Below are positions 1-24,908 of a stretch of DNA of 24,908 bases, in pieces. The notes under the pieces were generated by a model that was not told where the DNA came from, ran no database searches, and saw only the letters and a program-made list of their open reading frames with translations. The DNA comes from a virus, in the IMG/VR virus record IMGVR_UViG_3300046167_000502, positions 1 to 24,908 of that record; one strand, written 5' to 3'. The position numbers were made by a program, and so were the translations under genes. The stretch's first letter is position 1, and each line of letters begins with the position of its first letter.

Positions 1-567
1 AACACCCCATCTGTTTAACCAATCAAGTAATTCACTACGAGTAATTCTACGACGCACTTCTTTAACTTCTTGTAGCTGTCTAGTGTTAACTCTTACAGAA
101 CCTGCAGCTCTACATAGTCTACTTAAATCTTTAACTGAAGTATCGTTAGGTATATTATTGTTAGACAATACTTTGTATATTGCATTAACTACATTAGGAT
201 ATTCTTGTTTAGTAAATCCTTCTTCAACAGAAATGATTGCATGATATGATTTACCACCAGACCATAAGAGTGTTGCATACGGTAGGTCTACTTCCTGAAA
301 CCATTCTAGTTGTTGCTCTTTCGGCACAGGTTTCTTTACACCACTACCATCATTATAATCATCTATCTCTACTAAAATATTTCTTAAAGCAATAACATTA
401 TCGTTGGCTCGTGTACTCTGAGGTTTCATAGGATTAATAGAAAACAATTCGCAGTCTTCTTTCAAACCTTTTAGATGTACTGGATATGTTGTAGTACCAA
501 ATTTGTTAGGTGCAAAACATGTCCATTCATCTTCATTAAATAATACTTTATAAAACTCTTTAGTCAT
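1..567 (-). CDS. Archaeo-eukaryotic-type primase (AEP/RepB-primase-like), N-terminal part, runs off the window
   Basis: The minus-strand reading frame is open from an ATG at 567 to base 1 (189 codons, no stop). It shows the three marks of the AEP primase superfamily in order. An acidic motif VEIDD lies at residues 66-70, an SxH motif (S107-Y108-H109, preceded by LLWSGGK) follows, and then an Asp (D147) before SRLCR (149-153), which resembles the 'D..RLxR.pG' motif of RepB-type primases. The expected role is primer synthesis for phage DNA replication. The start overlaps the end of the upstream acetyltransferase-like gene by 8 nt (ATGACTAA), suggesting translational coupling. The C-terminal part is not in this piece; the open frame at the right edge (24566-24908) may be it. 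The superfamily call is fairly secure; polymerase versus primase activity cannot be told. Confidence 0.72.
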   Translation of the reverse strand, partial: MTKEFYKVLFNEDEWTCFAPNKFGTTTYPVHLKGLKEDCELFSINPMKPQSTRANDNVIALRNILVEIDDYNDGSGVKKPVPKEQQLEWFQEVDLPYATLLWSGGKSYHAIISVEEGFTKQEYPNVVNAIYKVLSNNNIPNDTSVKDLSRLCRAAGSVRVNTRQLQEVKEVRRRITRSELLDWLNRWGV

Positions 568-1213
568 TGGCCAGTAATTCTTTTTTAAAAGCTTCTCCTT
601 CTGCTCTAAGTGCATCTGTTATTATAAACTCCATTTCTGCACCTAAACCTTCGCCGGTAAGGGTAAAGTCATTCTTTTCATAAAACTTTATTAAACGGAA
701 TGTATGACGCGCTAGTGCTTGTTTATACTGCTTAAACTTTCTATGTCCGTTAATAGTTTTAGTGTCAACACCCATTTTATCATATAACTCTACAGGTACT
801 GCTCTTAACTTAATATCTAAGTCATTAACGATACCAGCTAGTTTAAACATTGATAATGCTTTACTACCAATATCATTACCTCTTAATTCTTTAGCAACAG
901 CTAGATTAAAAATAAATATTGTATTATCTTCAATATAAAATGAAGTACTTAATGTAGGATGTAATGTAGTAACATAAACACGGTCAGGTGTTTTTTCTGT
1001 GTGTGCAAAGTATTTACCTTGATAAATACCTTCAATGTTTTCAGCAGGGAATCTAAGACATACTTCTTGTGGTTGAATACCTAAAGACATATATAGTCCT
1101 CGTATCATACCACGTACTTGTCCTTGCTCGTGTGTTAACATAATTTCTGAAGCTTCCATAGTTTCGTTTAAATTGTTAAATGCGTGTGAATCTAATCTTG
1201 ATTTATTTTTCAT
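560..1213 (-). CDS. GNAT-like acetyltransferase
   Basis: This is a 217-aa protein. Residues 103-127 look like GNAT motif A: a beta strand with F-N-L-A-V, then RGNDIGSKAL at 111-120, which fits the Q/RxxGxG/A acetyl-CoA pyrophosphate loop and its helix. Residues 174-183 (LIKFYEKNDF) match the C-terminal 'L..FYek.GF' signature of the family. GNAT enzymes move an acetyl group from acetyl-CoA to an amine; the substrate here is unknown. The gene lies in the early block directly before the primase and overlaps it by 8 nt, so it is probably expressed early and could modify a host protein or a small molecule. The N-terminal 90 residues are not recognised. The ATG at 1213 is preceded by an AT-rich stretch (TATATTAT) without a Shine-Dalgarno sequence. 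Confidence 0.6.
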   Translation of the reverse strand: MKNKSRLDSHAFNNLNETMEASEIMLTHEQGQVRGMIRGLYMSLGIQPQEVCLRFPAENIEGIYQGKYFAHTEKTPDRVYVTTLHPTLSTSFYIEDNTIFIFNLAVAKELRGNDIGSKALSMFKLAGIVNDLDIKLRAVPVELYDKMGVDTKTINGHRKFKQYKQALARHTFRLIKFYEKNDFTLTGEGLGAEMEFIITDALRAEGEAFKKELLAND

Positions 1214-8024: not shown

Positions 8025-8924
8025 TTACGCCATATCGTTTGTTGCGAAGACGTTAACTTCACCAACACCAACACCTAGTCTCCACGCTGCACGGAATTTC
8101 ATTACGTCAGCAGCTTCGTCGTAGAAGAATCTGAATGAATCTAGTTCATCAGTTAAACCAGTTGCAGCAAGAATCATCTTACCTGGACCAGCGAATTTGT
8201 AGTTAGAACCTACAAGACCTGAAGACTTGATAACAGTTACGTTAGTACCTGGAAGAATCATGATGTCGTTAGATTCAACTGAATTGAAGTGGTAAAGGTT
8301 CTGAGCAACTAAAGCTCTTACCAATGCTCTGTAAGCATCAGGAGAAACTACCATAATCAAATCATCTCTGTCTTTTACAGACTCAGCGATTGCATCATAA
8401 AGGTCTAAAGCTTGTTCATAAGCTGAACTTGCATCCCATGCAACTGGAGTACCAGCTTGTAGGTTTGCACCTTTAGCAGAAGTAATTTGTCCTTTAAGAC
8501 CTAAAGTAGTACCGAAACCGTTGATTAGGAAACCTTCGTTGTACTTTCTTAATTTGTCTGTGTACGATTCAGAGATAACTGATTCGAAAGGAATGAAATC
8601 GTTACCAGTACCTGCATTCATGAATGCTGATTGGTATACTGAACGTAAATCTTCTACACACATTTCTGTTTTAGATTGTAGAGATTCGATTGTAACTGGA
8701 ACCTGCGTGTAAGTTACCTCACCGTCAGAAGTCCAACCACATGATAGAGCTGATACAGGTAAGTCTGCGTCAACTAAGTTAATAGATACAGTTCCAGAAG
8801 TGAAACCTGATCTTAGGTCTACGTAGTCAAGTAGATCCGTTTTTAATACAACCTTCGAGATAAGGTCCAACGACTGCTGGTCCGTATATGCTGGTAGTGC
8901 TGTAATGTCAAAGCCAAATGCCAT
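8025..8924 (-). CDS. Major capsid protein (HK97-like)
   Basis: This is a 299-aa protein. The pattern of an N-terminal arm, a long helix region ('SESYTDKLRKYNEGFLINGFGT'), a P-domain/A-domain segment ('DLIMVVSPDAYRALVRALVAQNLYHFN') and a C-terminal 'FRFFYDEAADVMKFRAAWRLGVGVG' is characteristic of HK97-type phage capsid proteins, where the last strand is the 'R.aW.lG' end of the fold. It is placed after a scaffold-like gene and followed by a strong UUCG terminator. No separate protease site is visible. The start is supported by the A-rich leader TAAAAAAACTAAATTTAA upstream of the ATG. Confidence 0.85.
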   Translation of the reverse strand: MAFGFDITALPAYTDQQSLDLISKVVLKTDLLDYVDLRSGFTSGTVSINLVDADLPVSALSCGWTSDGEVTYTQVPVTIESLQSKTEMCVEDLRSVYQSAFMNAGTGNDFIPFESVISESYTDKLRKYNEGFLINGFGTTLGLKGQITSAKGANLQAGTPVAWDASSAYEQALDLYDAIAESVKDRDDLIMVVSPDAYRALVRALVAQNLYHFNSVESNDIMILPGTNVTVIKSSGLVGSNYKFAGPGKMILAATGLTDELDSFRFFYDEAADVMKFRAAWRLGVGVGEVNVFATNDMA

Positions 8925-18863: not shown

Positions 18864-19280
18864 CTACACATCTTTGTAAGTCTTGTGTGTTCTAATTTGA
18901 TGTATAACATTTTTAGTTACTCCAAGTTCTGCACACAATTCTTTTTGAGTTTTATTTGAACTTCTAATATAGCGAACATTATCTGTTGTTAGTTTTCTTT
19001 TAGATTTATTGAATTCAATATTCCAATCATTCTTTCTGCCTTTATGTGCACGGCCTCCTTTTTTTAATGCAAGAGCAGCTGTGTTTGAATAAAGGTTATG
19101 GTCAACAGGGTACCCGTATTGTCTCTGTAACTCTCGTTCTCTGCGGCTAACCTCATCAATATCAGTATGTTCTTCGAGTATTTCATAGTCTCCATTCCAT
19201 TCATGTTCTGTCATACGACGTTCTACGTCTACGCTAACGCCAATCTTTCTACGTTCTTCAATGTGATAAATATAATACAT
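18864..19280 (-). CDS. GIY-YIG homing endonuclease with C-terminal helix-turn-helix
   Basis: This is a 138-aa protein. The N-terminal 'YYIYHI' (2-7) and 'KIGVSVDVERRMTEHE' (12-27) fit the GIY-YIG module (first Tyr pair, then KxGxs and Arg), with Glu at about 50 as the probable metal-binding residue and Asn62. Residues of about 112-135 ('TQKELCAELGVTKNVIHQIR') form a helix-turn-helix that would bind the target site. It is free-standing between the terminase and a structural gene, 27-32 nt from both, so it looks like a mobile gene added to the packaging region. It could cut related phage genomes that lack it. Confidence 0.8.
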   Translation of the reverse strand: MYYIYHIEERRKIGVSVDVERRMTEHEWNGDYEILEEHTDIDEVSRRERELQRQYGYPVDHNLYSNTAALALKKGGRAHKGRKNDWNIEFNKSKRKLTTDNVRYIRSSNKTQKELCAELGVTKNVIHQIRTHKTYKDV

Positions 19281-19307: not shown

Positions 19308-20559
19308 TTAGTACCGATTGTTTGGGGAGCCACCTAAAGTTGCGTACGTGCCATAACTTACATTCTGTTTTCTATGGTAGTTTGCAATAGCTAAGCTCAT
19401 GACTACGTCATCATGGAGTCCACTCGGCGCGTTAAATGTGATTGACCTGGTCTTTGGAGAGTATGAATATTCATATACACTAAGTTCAAAAAGTAATGGT
19501 GGAAACAGTTCCTCTGACGGTAACGTTAAAGCACTCTCATTTAAGTCTAACACGAGACCTTCAATAATCTCTTGCTTAGATTTGTTAGAGGTGTTGAACG
19601 GGTGTGTGTCCCTCCATTTATCCTTAATCTGTTGGTGTATTACATCACCTATCGAGTTCTTCTCTACAAGCACGGTTGCGTTAAACTGTTTTATGAGTTT
19701 TAACATATCCTGCACCATCCCAGACCAATCCTTTGAGTTCTCCCTATACATACCTACTACTTGACCATTGCTGTCGATAAACGTGGCCACAGTGTAATCC
19801 ACTGAACGCCCTAAATCTATTCCACAATATACCTTTCCTTGAGGCTTCGGGTAACTGTCAAATGTTTTAGTATTGCTTAGGTCGAATACTCCACGGCCGC
19901 TATCTTCAAAGCTACCTTCATATTCCGCTGCAAAAATAGATTGTGGTAATGTTAACCTGGCATTCTCAATTTCTTGCGGGTCAACGAACGGGTTATCTGT
20001 GTAATGCATTCGACAACTTGAATAGTCTGAAGTCTCTGGGTCTGTTGATTGGCCTAAGTCATAATGTTCTTTAAACCAATTCGAACCGCGAGGCGTACTA
20101 ATAAATAAAACCTTCTTACCTCTTACAAGCATGATAGGTCTCAGTACAGCTTTCCATACTTCATCATTCATATAGGCAGCTTCATCTACAACCATGTAGT
20201 CTCCCGTGTTCCCTCTTAAGTTATCCGGTCTTTCAGCTGACTTGAAGTATATCTTCGAACCATTCTTAAACTTGATAGTTACATCTGAACGGTTAGCCGA
20301 CTTAATTAAACCTGATGGGTGTACCGCGTCATACAGTTGCTCGAATACTTTTTTAGCTTGAGCATAGATAGGGCGACACCCAGAATATTTCTGCGCCCGG
20401 TGAATTAATTGCCCAATAAAGAATTACCTGCATTGCAAGGAATGATTTACCCGTTTGACGAGGTGCCACTACCGTTACATACTTTGAAGTATCCTTAATT
20501 AAACTTACTGCTCTTAGCTGACCTTTATGTAAATCAGGTCCTTGCACTATCTTGCTCAT
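19308..20559 (-). CDS. terL: Terminase large subunit, interrupted by a +1 frameshift
   Basis: Two frames join into one 416-aa terminase. The first (20559 to about 20371) has the Walker A motif APRQTGKS at residues 32-39. It runs into FWVSP at 63, then meets a stop at 20353. Skipping the T at 20370 continues in the next frame with IYAQAKKVFEQLYDAV (adenine/coupling segment). That frame has Walker B MVVDEA at 122-127 and the nuclease domain with Asp248 (CGIDLG), Glu299 (VLVEKN) and Asp383-Asp384 (LHDDVV). It is the packaging motor that cuts and pumps DNA. The shift site is TCG CCC TAT, where CCC can slip to CCT. It may be programmed, a recent mutation, or an error; without the shift no working ATPase is made. 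An internal ATG at 20195 cannot supply the Walker A. Confidence 0.8.
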
Positions 20560-22816: not shown

Positions 22817-24103
22817 CTACAGAGCCGGCATTTCAATCTCCGGTGCACTACGCTGAATTAAATCATGGTCTGATAGCCAATCAAATCGCATACCATCTCC
22901 TTTTCTTAAGTTACCATACTTTTGTTTCTGTACAGTTAATGTATAAGTGCCCTTTAATTTGTACGGTGAATCTGGTTCTGGTTCTAGCCCATCTAATTGT
23001 GGGTATTCAAGTTTTACAGCCCACACATAATTTACGTGGTGTGTTGCTTCATAAGCGCCTGCAACATCGTATAAATCTGGTACAGTACCTCTTTGACCTA
23101 ATGCTCGACTAGCTTCTCTGTTTAACTGAATACTTGTAACTACACAAACGTTTTCAGACATAGCTAATTCTTTTAACTCTTTAAATATTATACCAATTCT
23201 TTCCCACTCTTGTAATTGTTTTCTAGGGTCTGATATTTCTACAAGTTTACCATAGTCAACTACAACAGCATCAATTGTTGTACCTATCTCTTCTTTATGT
23301 TTTTCTAAATATAATTTGATTTGGTCTATTCTAATACCAGACCATTCAGCAACATAGATTTTACCCCAATTCTTTTCTTTAGCTAACTCAACATAACGTT
23401 TACCTACTTCTTCAAAACCATCTTTAGTTAATTCTTTATATTGTATTTCTGTGATACCTAAAGCTGTTTGGTATACTCTACGTATAGTATCTGAACTGGG
23501 TTCCTCTTGGGCCAAGTAAAGTACGTTAGAACCTGTCTTAAGTATCTGTACAGATAGCCAAGTTTTCAATACTGTTTTACCACCATTAGTTGTTGCAATA
23601 AATGAATAAAGTACTTTCTTTTTTAAGGGTACATCGTTGTCTACTAACCATGGGATATTTACTTTAATCTCTTCTTCTTCTGAGTGTGTTAAAGCTTGCC
23701 AGTTTTCTGCATTGATAGGGTCCGCGTACTGTACACGCTTTTCTTTACTTAGCTCAACTATCCTTGCTGTTAAATCACTAACATCTGTATCTGGTTCGCA
23801 AAGTGAAATCTGCTTTGTAATTTTTATAATAGCTTCGGTTCGCAAACGAAAGAGTGCAACCTGTTGACTTGCTGTATCAAGTACATCTGCATCTGCAATA
23901 CCTTTAACAACCCCCTGAAACCCGGCCGGCTGCGCGGCACGTAACTCCATCGCTACAGACTTCAGTGTAGGTTTATCTGTTAGTTTTAATTGTCGAGTGT
24001 ATTCCTTTACAATAAGTGCTTCTGTATCTGTTAATACTTCTGAGGGTATCTCTGAGAATAGTTTAGGATTTTTAAACCCTGTTTTCAATATATCGTATTT
24101 CAT
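22817..24103 (-). CDS. DnaB-like replicative helicase
   Basis: This is a 428-aa protein. The RecA/DnaB fold is shown by Walker A 'ATTNGGKT' at 170-177, 'VLYLAQEEPSSDTIRRVYQ' in the region of the DnaB H1a motif (the usual E is part of QEE at 199-201), and Walker B 'VVVDYGKL' at 280-287. The 'VVTSIQLNREASRA' strand at 321-334 is the DnaB H3 sensor. The N-terminal 130 residues are a short helical domain that is not a full DnaB N-domain. The protein would unwind the phage DNA as a hexamer. It stands 1 nt after the initiator gene at 24105-24569 (ATG at 24103), an initiator-helicase pair like O/P of lambda. Confidence 0.85.
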   Translation of the reverse strand: MKYDILKTGFKNPKLFSEIPSEVLTDTEALIVKEYTRQLKLTDKPTLKSVAMELRAAQPAGFQGVVKGIADADVLDTASQQVALFRLRTEAIIKITKQISLCEPDTDVSDLTARIVELSKEKRVQYADPINAENWQALTHSEEEEIKVNIPWLVDNDVPLKKKVLYSFIATTNGGKTVLKTWLSVQILKTGSNVLYLAQEEPSSDTIRRVYQTALGITEIQYKELTKDGFEEVGKRYVELAKEKNWGKIYVAEWSGIRIDQIKLYLEKHKEEIGTTIDAVVVDYGKLVEISDPRKQLQEWERIGIIFKELKELAMSENVCVVTSIQLNREASRALGQRGTVPDLYDVAGAYEATHHVNYVWAVKLEYPQLDGLEPEPDSPYKLKGTYTLTVQKQKYGNLRKGDGMRFDWLSDHDLIQRSAPEIEMPAL

Positions 24104-24104
24104 A

Positions 24105-24569
24105 TTATTTATGTTGGTTTTTATAAGCTTCTATTTGTTCTGGGGTTAACGTACTCAATTTAACTGGGGGAGGAGTGTTAAGCGACTCACCCTGTGTATT
24201 ATAATTATTAATATAATTATTTACCTTATCCCCTGGGGACGTACCTTTTGTTCTTTGGGGACGTACCTTTGCTCCTTTAGGGACGTACCTTAATGCTTTG
24301 TATTGTGCAGGTTTGTTACCCTTTCTTTGATACAAACGAGTTCTTTGTATTAATTCAGCGGCTACTAAACCATCAAGTGCAGCTTTCATAGTAGCTGGTT
24401 TAAATTTATAATCCCTCGCAAACGCAGTAGAATAAAAGTTAACTGTGCCTACTGTTTTTGTAAAATGTACAATACAACATAGTGCTAACCAGCTTGCAGT
24501 TTGCAAACTTCCCTTTAACCCACTAATGTACGGGTCCTTTAATAAATTGTGGTTAACACTATAATTCAT
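24105..24569 (-). CDS. Winged-helix replication initiator-like protein carrying the origin
   Basis: This is a 154-aa protein. Residues about 20-95 look like a winged helix ('SLQTASWLALCCIVHFTKT', 'YKFKPATMKAALDGLVAAELI', 'RTRLYQRKGNKPAQYK', the last as wing). A basic, low-complexity part (95-128) and a short C-terminal helix 'LTPEQIEAYKNQ' follow. It is the gene before the DnaB-like helicase and starts in the ATGA overlap with the upstream open frame. Its low-complexity part is encoded by DNA that holds three 13-bp iterons and a 26-bp A/T tract. That makes it the analogue of lambda O, a replication initiator that binds iterons in its own gene and loads the helicase; this role is inferred from arrangement and domain look. 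Confidence 0.65.
   Translation of the reverse strand: MNYSVNHNLLKDPYISGLKGSLQTASWLALCCIVHFTKTVGTVNFYSTAFARDYKFKPATMKAALDGLVAAELIQRTRLYQRKGNKPAQYKALRYVPKGAKVRPQRTKGTSPGDKVNNYINNYNTQGESLNTPPPVKLSTLTPEQIEAYKNQHK
24198..24223. other. 26-bp pure A/T tract beside the iterons, candidate unwinding element
   Basis: These 26 bases contain no G or C and hold a repeated 10-mer (AATAATTATA on the minus strand). They lie 11 bp from the first iteron. In lambda-type origins an A/T-rich region beside the O-binding iterons opens first; the order here (iterons, then A/T tract, then helicase gene) is the same. Confidence 0.6.
24235..24291. repeat. Three 13-bp iterons at 22-bp spacing inside the initiator gene
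   Basis: GGGGACGTACCTT (minus strand AAGGTACGTCCCC) occurs at 24235-24247 and 24257-24269, and once as AGGGACGTACCTT at 24279-24291. The spacing is exactly 22 bp twice, about two helical turns, so the sites lie on one face of the DNA. The copies fall into three different reading frames (encoding RYVP, KVRP and GTSP), so the repeat is kept at the DNA level and not as a protein repeat. Confidence 0.85.
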
Positions 24570-24908
24570 GACAATTTATATTGTTTAAATCCTTTTTGTT
24601 TCGCCCAGCTATAACCTTTAGTAATTACATCATTAAGAGTACCACCTCCAGCTGAACTTATATAACGTGTTCCCCATTCAAGTTCTGCAAACGAAATAGC
24701 TCTTGCTAAAGACATATCAACTCTGTAACTATTGTAACCAAACTCCATCAACCACATGTGAGCACCTGTGGACATCGTAGGTGAATAGATACCCATCTTG
24801 TTAGTACTCCACTCCTTTGCTTTATTAAACTTCGTTAGAGGTGATATATTATCGTTAGCACCTGTTGTGTAAGTACTTGGTGTTGGTGGCTTAGGTGTTT
24901 CAATTGTA
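24566..24908 (-). CDS. C-terminal part of a replication protein, possibly the primase
   Basis: The minus-strand frame is open from base 24908 to a stop at 24566 (114 codons, no start within the window except an internal ATG at 24796). After a Pro/Thr-rich linker ('TPKPPTPSTY'), residues of a helical domain follow ('STGAHMWLMEFGYNSYRVDM', 'LARAISFAELEWGTRY', 'LNDVITKGYSWAKQKGF'). They recall the C-terminal helical domain (PriCT-like) of phage and plasmid primases. The gene lies directly before the replication initiator (ATGA overlap at 24566-24569). It could be the C-terminal half of the primase whose N-terminus lies at 1-567, if the map is circular or permuted. Confidence 0.5.
   Translation of the reverse strand, partial: TIETPKPPTPSTYTTGANDNISPLTKFNKAKEWSTNKMGIYSPTMSTGAHMWLMEFGYNSYRVDMSLARAISFAELEWGTRYISSAGGGTLNDVITKGYSWAKQKGFKQYKLS

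Follow-up and report, generated by a model that had tools for sequence, protein, structure and literature searches.

A very likely phage replication origin of phased iterons and an A/T palindrome inside its own initiator gene, with copies outside that gene in relatives

The window analysed here is a 24,908-nucleotide stretch of viral DNA, positions 1 to 24,908 of IMG/VR record IMGVR_UViG_3300046167_000502. On its minus strand the gene order runs from primase through a 154-aa putative initiator to a DnaB-like helicase, with a set of DNA features lying within the initiator gene:

1 to 615, minus strand: N-terminal part of a DNA primase gene, truncated at one contig end (phrog_2597, 2e-18; collinear with relative L004)
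22817 to 24103, minus strand: DnaB-like replicative helicase gene, directly downstream of the initiator gene (PF03796, DnaB_C, 1.3e-14; phrog_19, 6e-31)
24105 to 24569, minus strand: 154-aa putative replication initiator gene (PHROG matches, AlphaFold2 winged-helix (wHTH) topology, homologs in the same place in L004, L026 and L048)
24173 to 24188, no strand: possible distal hairpin GAGT/ACTC, weak in the window, identified by its match in position to hairpins of relatives
24197 to 24223, no strand: presumed unwinding element, a tract of A and T only and the longest of its kind in the window
24201 to 24220, no strand: perfect 8-bp inverted repeat ATAATTAT-TAAT-ATAATTAT within the A/T tract
24236 to 24247, minus strand: iteron 3, an exact repeat 22 bp from iteron 2 and followed by CCCCAGGGG
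24258 to 24269, minus strand: iteron 2, an exact repeat 22 bp from iteron 1
24280 to 24291, minus strand: iteron 1, an exact repeat
24566 to 24907, minus strand: C-terminal part of that primase gene, truncated at the opposite contig end (collinear with L004)

In L004 the primase is one 297-aa gene, and its division over the two ends of the window indicates that the contig is a nearly complete genome, either permuted or a circle that has been cut. Because the halves of the gene join out of frame, a few bases must be missing or altered at the contig ends.

The motif GGGACGTACCTT occurs three times on the plus strand, with starts at 24236, 24258 and 24280 and thus spacings of 22 and 22 bp. On the minus strand, which is the coding one, this reads AAGGTACGTCCC, and within the 465-nt initiator gene the copies lie at nucleotides 279, 301 and 323, beginning in codon frames 2, 0 and 1. 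The initial annotation of this DNA had described three 13-bp repeats at exactly 22-bp spacing in three reading frames; an exact repeat count and a frame check confirm the number, the spacing and the frames, but not the length, since 12 bp are exactly common to all three copies and 15 bp to two. Within the window this is the only equally spaced triple of exact 12-mers, and the number expected by chance from base composition is about 5e-8. Because the tails of the aligned proteins contain recurrent short motifs (KVxPxxxKG, for example), the DNA repeats might be taken for a side effect of repetition in the protein. We reject this explanation, to which we give next to no weight: the 22-bp period cannot be divided by 3, each copy falls in a different frame, the observed repeat score was reached in 0 of 300 synonymous recodings of the window protein, and the intergenic copies described below are not translated within an initiator. 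The amino acids are therefore not the cause of the repeats, and recoding failed equally to reproduce the array in each of the four initiator genes compared in this study (0/300 in every case).

Beside the iterons lies the A/T tract, which had been described as 26 bp long with a 10-bp repeat of its own. The tract itself stands, at 27 bp, and the repeat is better regarded as the perfect inverted repeat listed above. The 40 nt 3' of the iterons are 80% A/T in the window, as against 77.5% in both lambda and P22. The palindrome is the only hairpin with 8-bp arms and a loop of 3-5 nt in the window, yet whole-window shuffles yield about one such hairpin by chance, so that it is the position of the palindrome that counts and not its mere existence. 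Likewise, synonymous recoding creates a palindrome in 1.5-10% of recodings, and recoding alone is thus no strong proof that it is selected. The stronger argument, drawn from comparison among copies, is that the palindrome is conserved while its arms change and that it is present in copies outside the gene. All eight copies of the element have it as a perfect stem of 8 bp, with four different arm sequences, and the two arms covary: in the L011 copy termed L011a a T-to-A change is paired with A to T, and in L026 A to C with T to G. In the window, L011, L026 and L048 it is also the sole such hairpin of the sequence searched. The distal hairpin is clear in L026, L014, L050, L048 and the L011b copy introduced below; in the window it has 4-bp arms only.

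The protein encoded by the gene is predicted to begin with a winged-helix domain (approximately residues 1-95), which is followed by a low-confidence tail whose coding sequence contains the iterons and palindrome. The AlphaFold2 model of the domain has the order helix, strand, helix, helix, wing at a mean pLDDT of 63, and we regard the predicted winged-helix fold as one of modest confidence. Foldseek returned no structure matches at E<0.001 for the full-length or the domain models; the nearest neighbours, all non-significant, were GntR/MarR-type domains and entries called initiator. Among five aligned members of the family, PHROG profiles of DnaD-like helicase loaders (phrog_186) matched all five (best 4.8e-8) and those of O-like initiators (phrog_678) matched four (best 1.7e-5), and other replication initiators were matched as well. 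Pfam matches of the aligned members were all sub-threshold (PF04492 at 0.015 in L048 and MarR_2 at 0.0028 in L026), no Pfam family could be assigned to the window protein, and profile comparison of the initiator with lambda O and P22 gp18 was not significant. The proposal of a lambda O-like initiator is accordingly favoured, weakly, by the PHROG matches, but neither by Pfam for the window protein nor by the profile comparison. The C-terminal helix at residues 143-152 could contact the helicase.

The placement of iterons and A/T tract inside the gene that precedes a DnaB-like helicase, also asserted in the initial annotation, is confirmed by the Pfam and PHROG matches of the downstream gene. 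That annotation likened the layout to lambda, and the likeness is real in part. Lambda has four iterons within gene O (spacings 20, 24 and 23), an A/T-rich tract and a distal palindrome. Two of its iterons with the adjacent A/T tract are described as the minimal unwinding-competent fragment, and three as enough for normal growth, both according to literature cited in PMC7466680. The spacing in the window, like those of lambda and P22, corresponds to about two helical turns (20-24 bp). Lambda differs in that its A/T tract is not a perfect palindrome, its O protein has 299 aa, and it depends on the loader P and host DnaB, whereas a phage DnaB-like helicase is the next gene here. No gene P is present between initiator and helicase in the window, and the module is therefore not a lambda module; the closest layout is that of P22 genes 18 and 12. 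In P22 the origin is annotated within the O-like gene 18, directly upstream of the DnaB-like gene 12, and consists of three direct iterons (20 and 24 bp apart) and one inverted copy, then an A/T-rich stretch and a distal hairpin. The P22 iteron sequence is unrelated, the 22-bp spacing of the window is exact and its A/T tract is a perfect palindrome, unlike that of P22, and the P22 initiator is a protein of 271 aa, rather than 154 aa, without significant profile similarity. The element therefore probably works like a lambda or P22 origin with the gene order of P22, and we do not claim proven O-family membership for the protein.

Three diverged relatives, whose initiators are 33-57% identical to that of the window, have preserved the triple array with its 22-bp spacing, the A/T palindrome and the order of the genes. 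L004/L011 (57% identical) carries AAGGTAYRKCCCC three times in the corresponding position, with spacings of 22 and 22 bp, and then ATAATAAT-GATA-ATTATTAT; in G001/L026 (40%) the repeat is AAGGTTGGTCC, present three times at 22 bp, then ATAATTCT-AAA-AGAATTAT; and L048 (33%) has AAAGCAGTATC three times at 22 bp, then AATAATAT-AAATA-ATATTATT. The L048 iterons begin in codon frames 1, 2 and 0, as compared with 2, 0 and 1, and their core is unlike that of the window. Across the initiator-iteron pairs, which comprise the four distinct initiators known for comparison, the repeat cores are TACGTCC, TAYRTCC, TTGGTCC and, in L048, CAGTATC. Array, spacing and palindrome are thus constant while core, amino acids and codon register vary, which points to DNA-level selection on an origin. 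This comparative check, suggested at the outset for relatives with a different protein sequence, favours the origin, the DNA architecture being kept where core and amino acids have changed. Judged from the sequences, each initiator and its iterons diverge as pairs. A parallel is found in the PLE satellite of Vibrio cholerae, where the DNA-binding domain of RepA and the iterons covary between relatives (PMC8263062); the PLE origin differs in being noncoding, and its RepA_N protein belongs to a different family.

What is new here is that the complete element also occurs outside the initiator gene in four relatives. These copies were found by a DNA profile search, the profile being built from the same copies that it delimits:

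L011:11091-11235: ectopic copy L011b, between divergently oriented genes
L026:3533-3700: ectopic copy of G001/L026, a four-iteron array starting at the terminase stop codon
L014:2222-2368: ectopic copy between structural genes
L050:9986-10151, minus strand: orphan origin element that keeps the palindrome, three iterons and what is left of the 3' end of the former gene

The sequence of L011b is present in the separate contigs L007, L009 and L015 as well, and the G001/L026 array is 98% identical to its in-gene copy over 94 nt. The ectopic copies retain the A/T palindrome, and most also have the distal hairpin with changed arms. In both two-site genomes, L011 and G001/L026, the in-gene and ectopic cores are identical to each other and unlike those of the other initiator-bearing phages, which points to one trans-acting protein reading both sites. 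No intact initiator homolog was found in the 22.5-kb contig of L050, where the replication module has apparently been replaced. Adjoining the orphan element, at L050:10280-10975 (minus strand), is an unrelated 231-aa gene with GGGGAGCACAAA repeats of its own at 21 bp. In the window itself the profile search revealed no second copy, the match at 24148-24294 standing alone and the next having E=0.59.

Iterons at two separate sites are also known from systems such as P4, in which the same iterons lie at two distant places in one genome, ori1 and crr, and the initiator is a combined primase-helicase. The present case differs in that every ectopic copy forms an entire origin element, and that the window has none. 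The ectopic copies could be second origins, partner sites like P4 crr, sites of initiator titration or exclusion, or relics. A precedent for interference comes from plasmids with lambda iterons ITN3-4 and transcribed oop, which block lambda replication, and the A/T tract is dispensable for this (PMC3349717). Since the ectopic copies have retained their A/T palindrome, a role in titration alone is less likely. It is possible, although we consider it doubtful, that they are functional second origins or initiator-capturing sites, the origin having been duplicated and moved out of the gene with its iterons matched to the phage's own initiator. Under the same tentative proposal L050 would have kept its origin after the initiator was replaced, and could use or disrupt the initiator of a co-infecting relative.

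The ectopic copies also bear on two other explanations of the array. One is that it is an operator, through which the winged-helix protein regulates its own gene and, via the ectopic copies, other phage genes. The predicted fold is nearest, non-significantly, to GntR/MarR-type wHTH regulators, and L011b lies between divergently oriented genes, as an operator might. We nonetheless find this explanation improbable, as the in-gene array sits late in the coding sequence and not at a promoter, the neighbouring genes are helicase and primase, and the ectopic copies retain the A/T palindrome and, in most cases, the distal hairpin, with one of them following a terminase stop codon. The other explanation, that the site is a partition, packaging or recombination element bound by another phage or host protein, draws on the differing places of the ectopic copies in different phages. 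It is very improbable in our judgement: the in-gene copy invariably lies within the initiator gene, beside the helicase, its core covaries with the initiator sequence, and the fixed 22-bp phasing together with the A/T palindrome best fits initiator origins.

We conclude that the site is very likely an origin, and with high probability that the array and A/T palindrome constitute a phage replication origin inside its own initiator gene, working by the mechanism proposed here. At the sequence level this reading is supported by the repeats, DNA-level selection, conserved architecture and gene order, paired divergence and ectopic copies. The original suggestion of an origin within the initiator gene is, in this way, borne out by the conserved DNA architecture of the relatives and by whole copies of the element outside the gene. 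GC skew is negative almost throughout the window and does not mark the site; it is uninformative because nearly all genes lie on one strand. In the model that we favor, the 154-aa winged-helix protein would bind the three iterons, which lie about two turns of the helix from one another, to form a phased nucleoprotein complex, and this binding would strain and melt the adjacent A/T palindrome. The opened strand would then receive the phage's own DnaB-like helicase, recruited via the C-terminal tail of the initiator, after which the phage primase would begin synthesis, with initiation at this site.

The initial annotation had taken the virus for a Bacteroidota phage. A Shine-Dalgarno-like tetramer lies within 20 nt of the start in 2 of the 26 minus-strand genes of at least 100 aa in the window, and this near absence fits such a host, which is unproven, no cultured relative having been found. 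Neither the initiator nor the 299-aa protein at 8025-8924 (presumed capsid) had a relative found among cultured phages, the helicase and terminase gave remote matches only, and scans of bacterial genomes revealed no relatives. Searched by BLAST against phages and plasmids, the element had either no match or short, poor ones.

For phages that lack cultured relatives, these findings provide a defined, cloneable candidate origin and a compact putative initiator. The most interesting features, the co-diverging initiator-iteron pairs and the ectopic or orphan candidate origins, lie outside the coordinates to which the initial annotation drew attention. The four pairs offer a natural series for studying iteron recognition by a winged-helix initiator. 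The ectopic copies raise two testable questions: what reason a phage of some 25 kb would have for a second copy of its origin, and whether the initiator of a rival is exploited or blocked by an orphan origin. If the host is one of the Bacteroidota, for which few replicon tools exist, initiator and origin together in less than 500 bp could provide a small plasmid replicon.

Most of the other triple-repeat matches (L017-L025 and L027) proved to be unrelated repeats without the A/T palindrome and were set aside. The unrelated phages L012 (10663-10717), L005, L006, L008 and L010 carry AAGGTATGTCCC repeats at 22 bp, also without an A/T palindrome. These lie between a gene resembling a primase-helicase and one of 155 aa that, judged by eye, is possibly of the HTH type, and are a similar iteron in a different setting. 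Elsewhere in the window the large terminase, a single 413-aa gene in L004, is represented by two open reading frames (19308-20195 and 20353-20559, minus strand), reflecting a frameshift, an insertion or a sequence error. Open reading frames that resemble GIY-YIG homing endonucleases by eye lie near the terminase, at 18864-19280 (minus strand) in the window and at L004:4377-4826 and L004:5226-5735.
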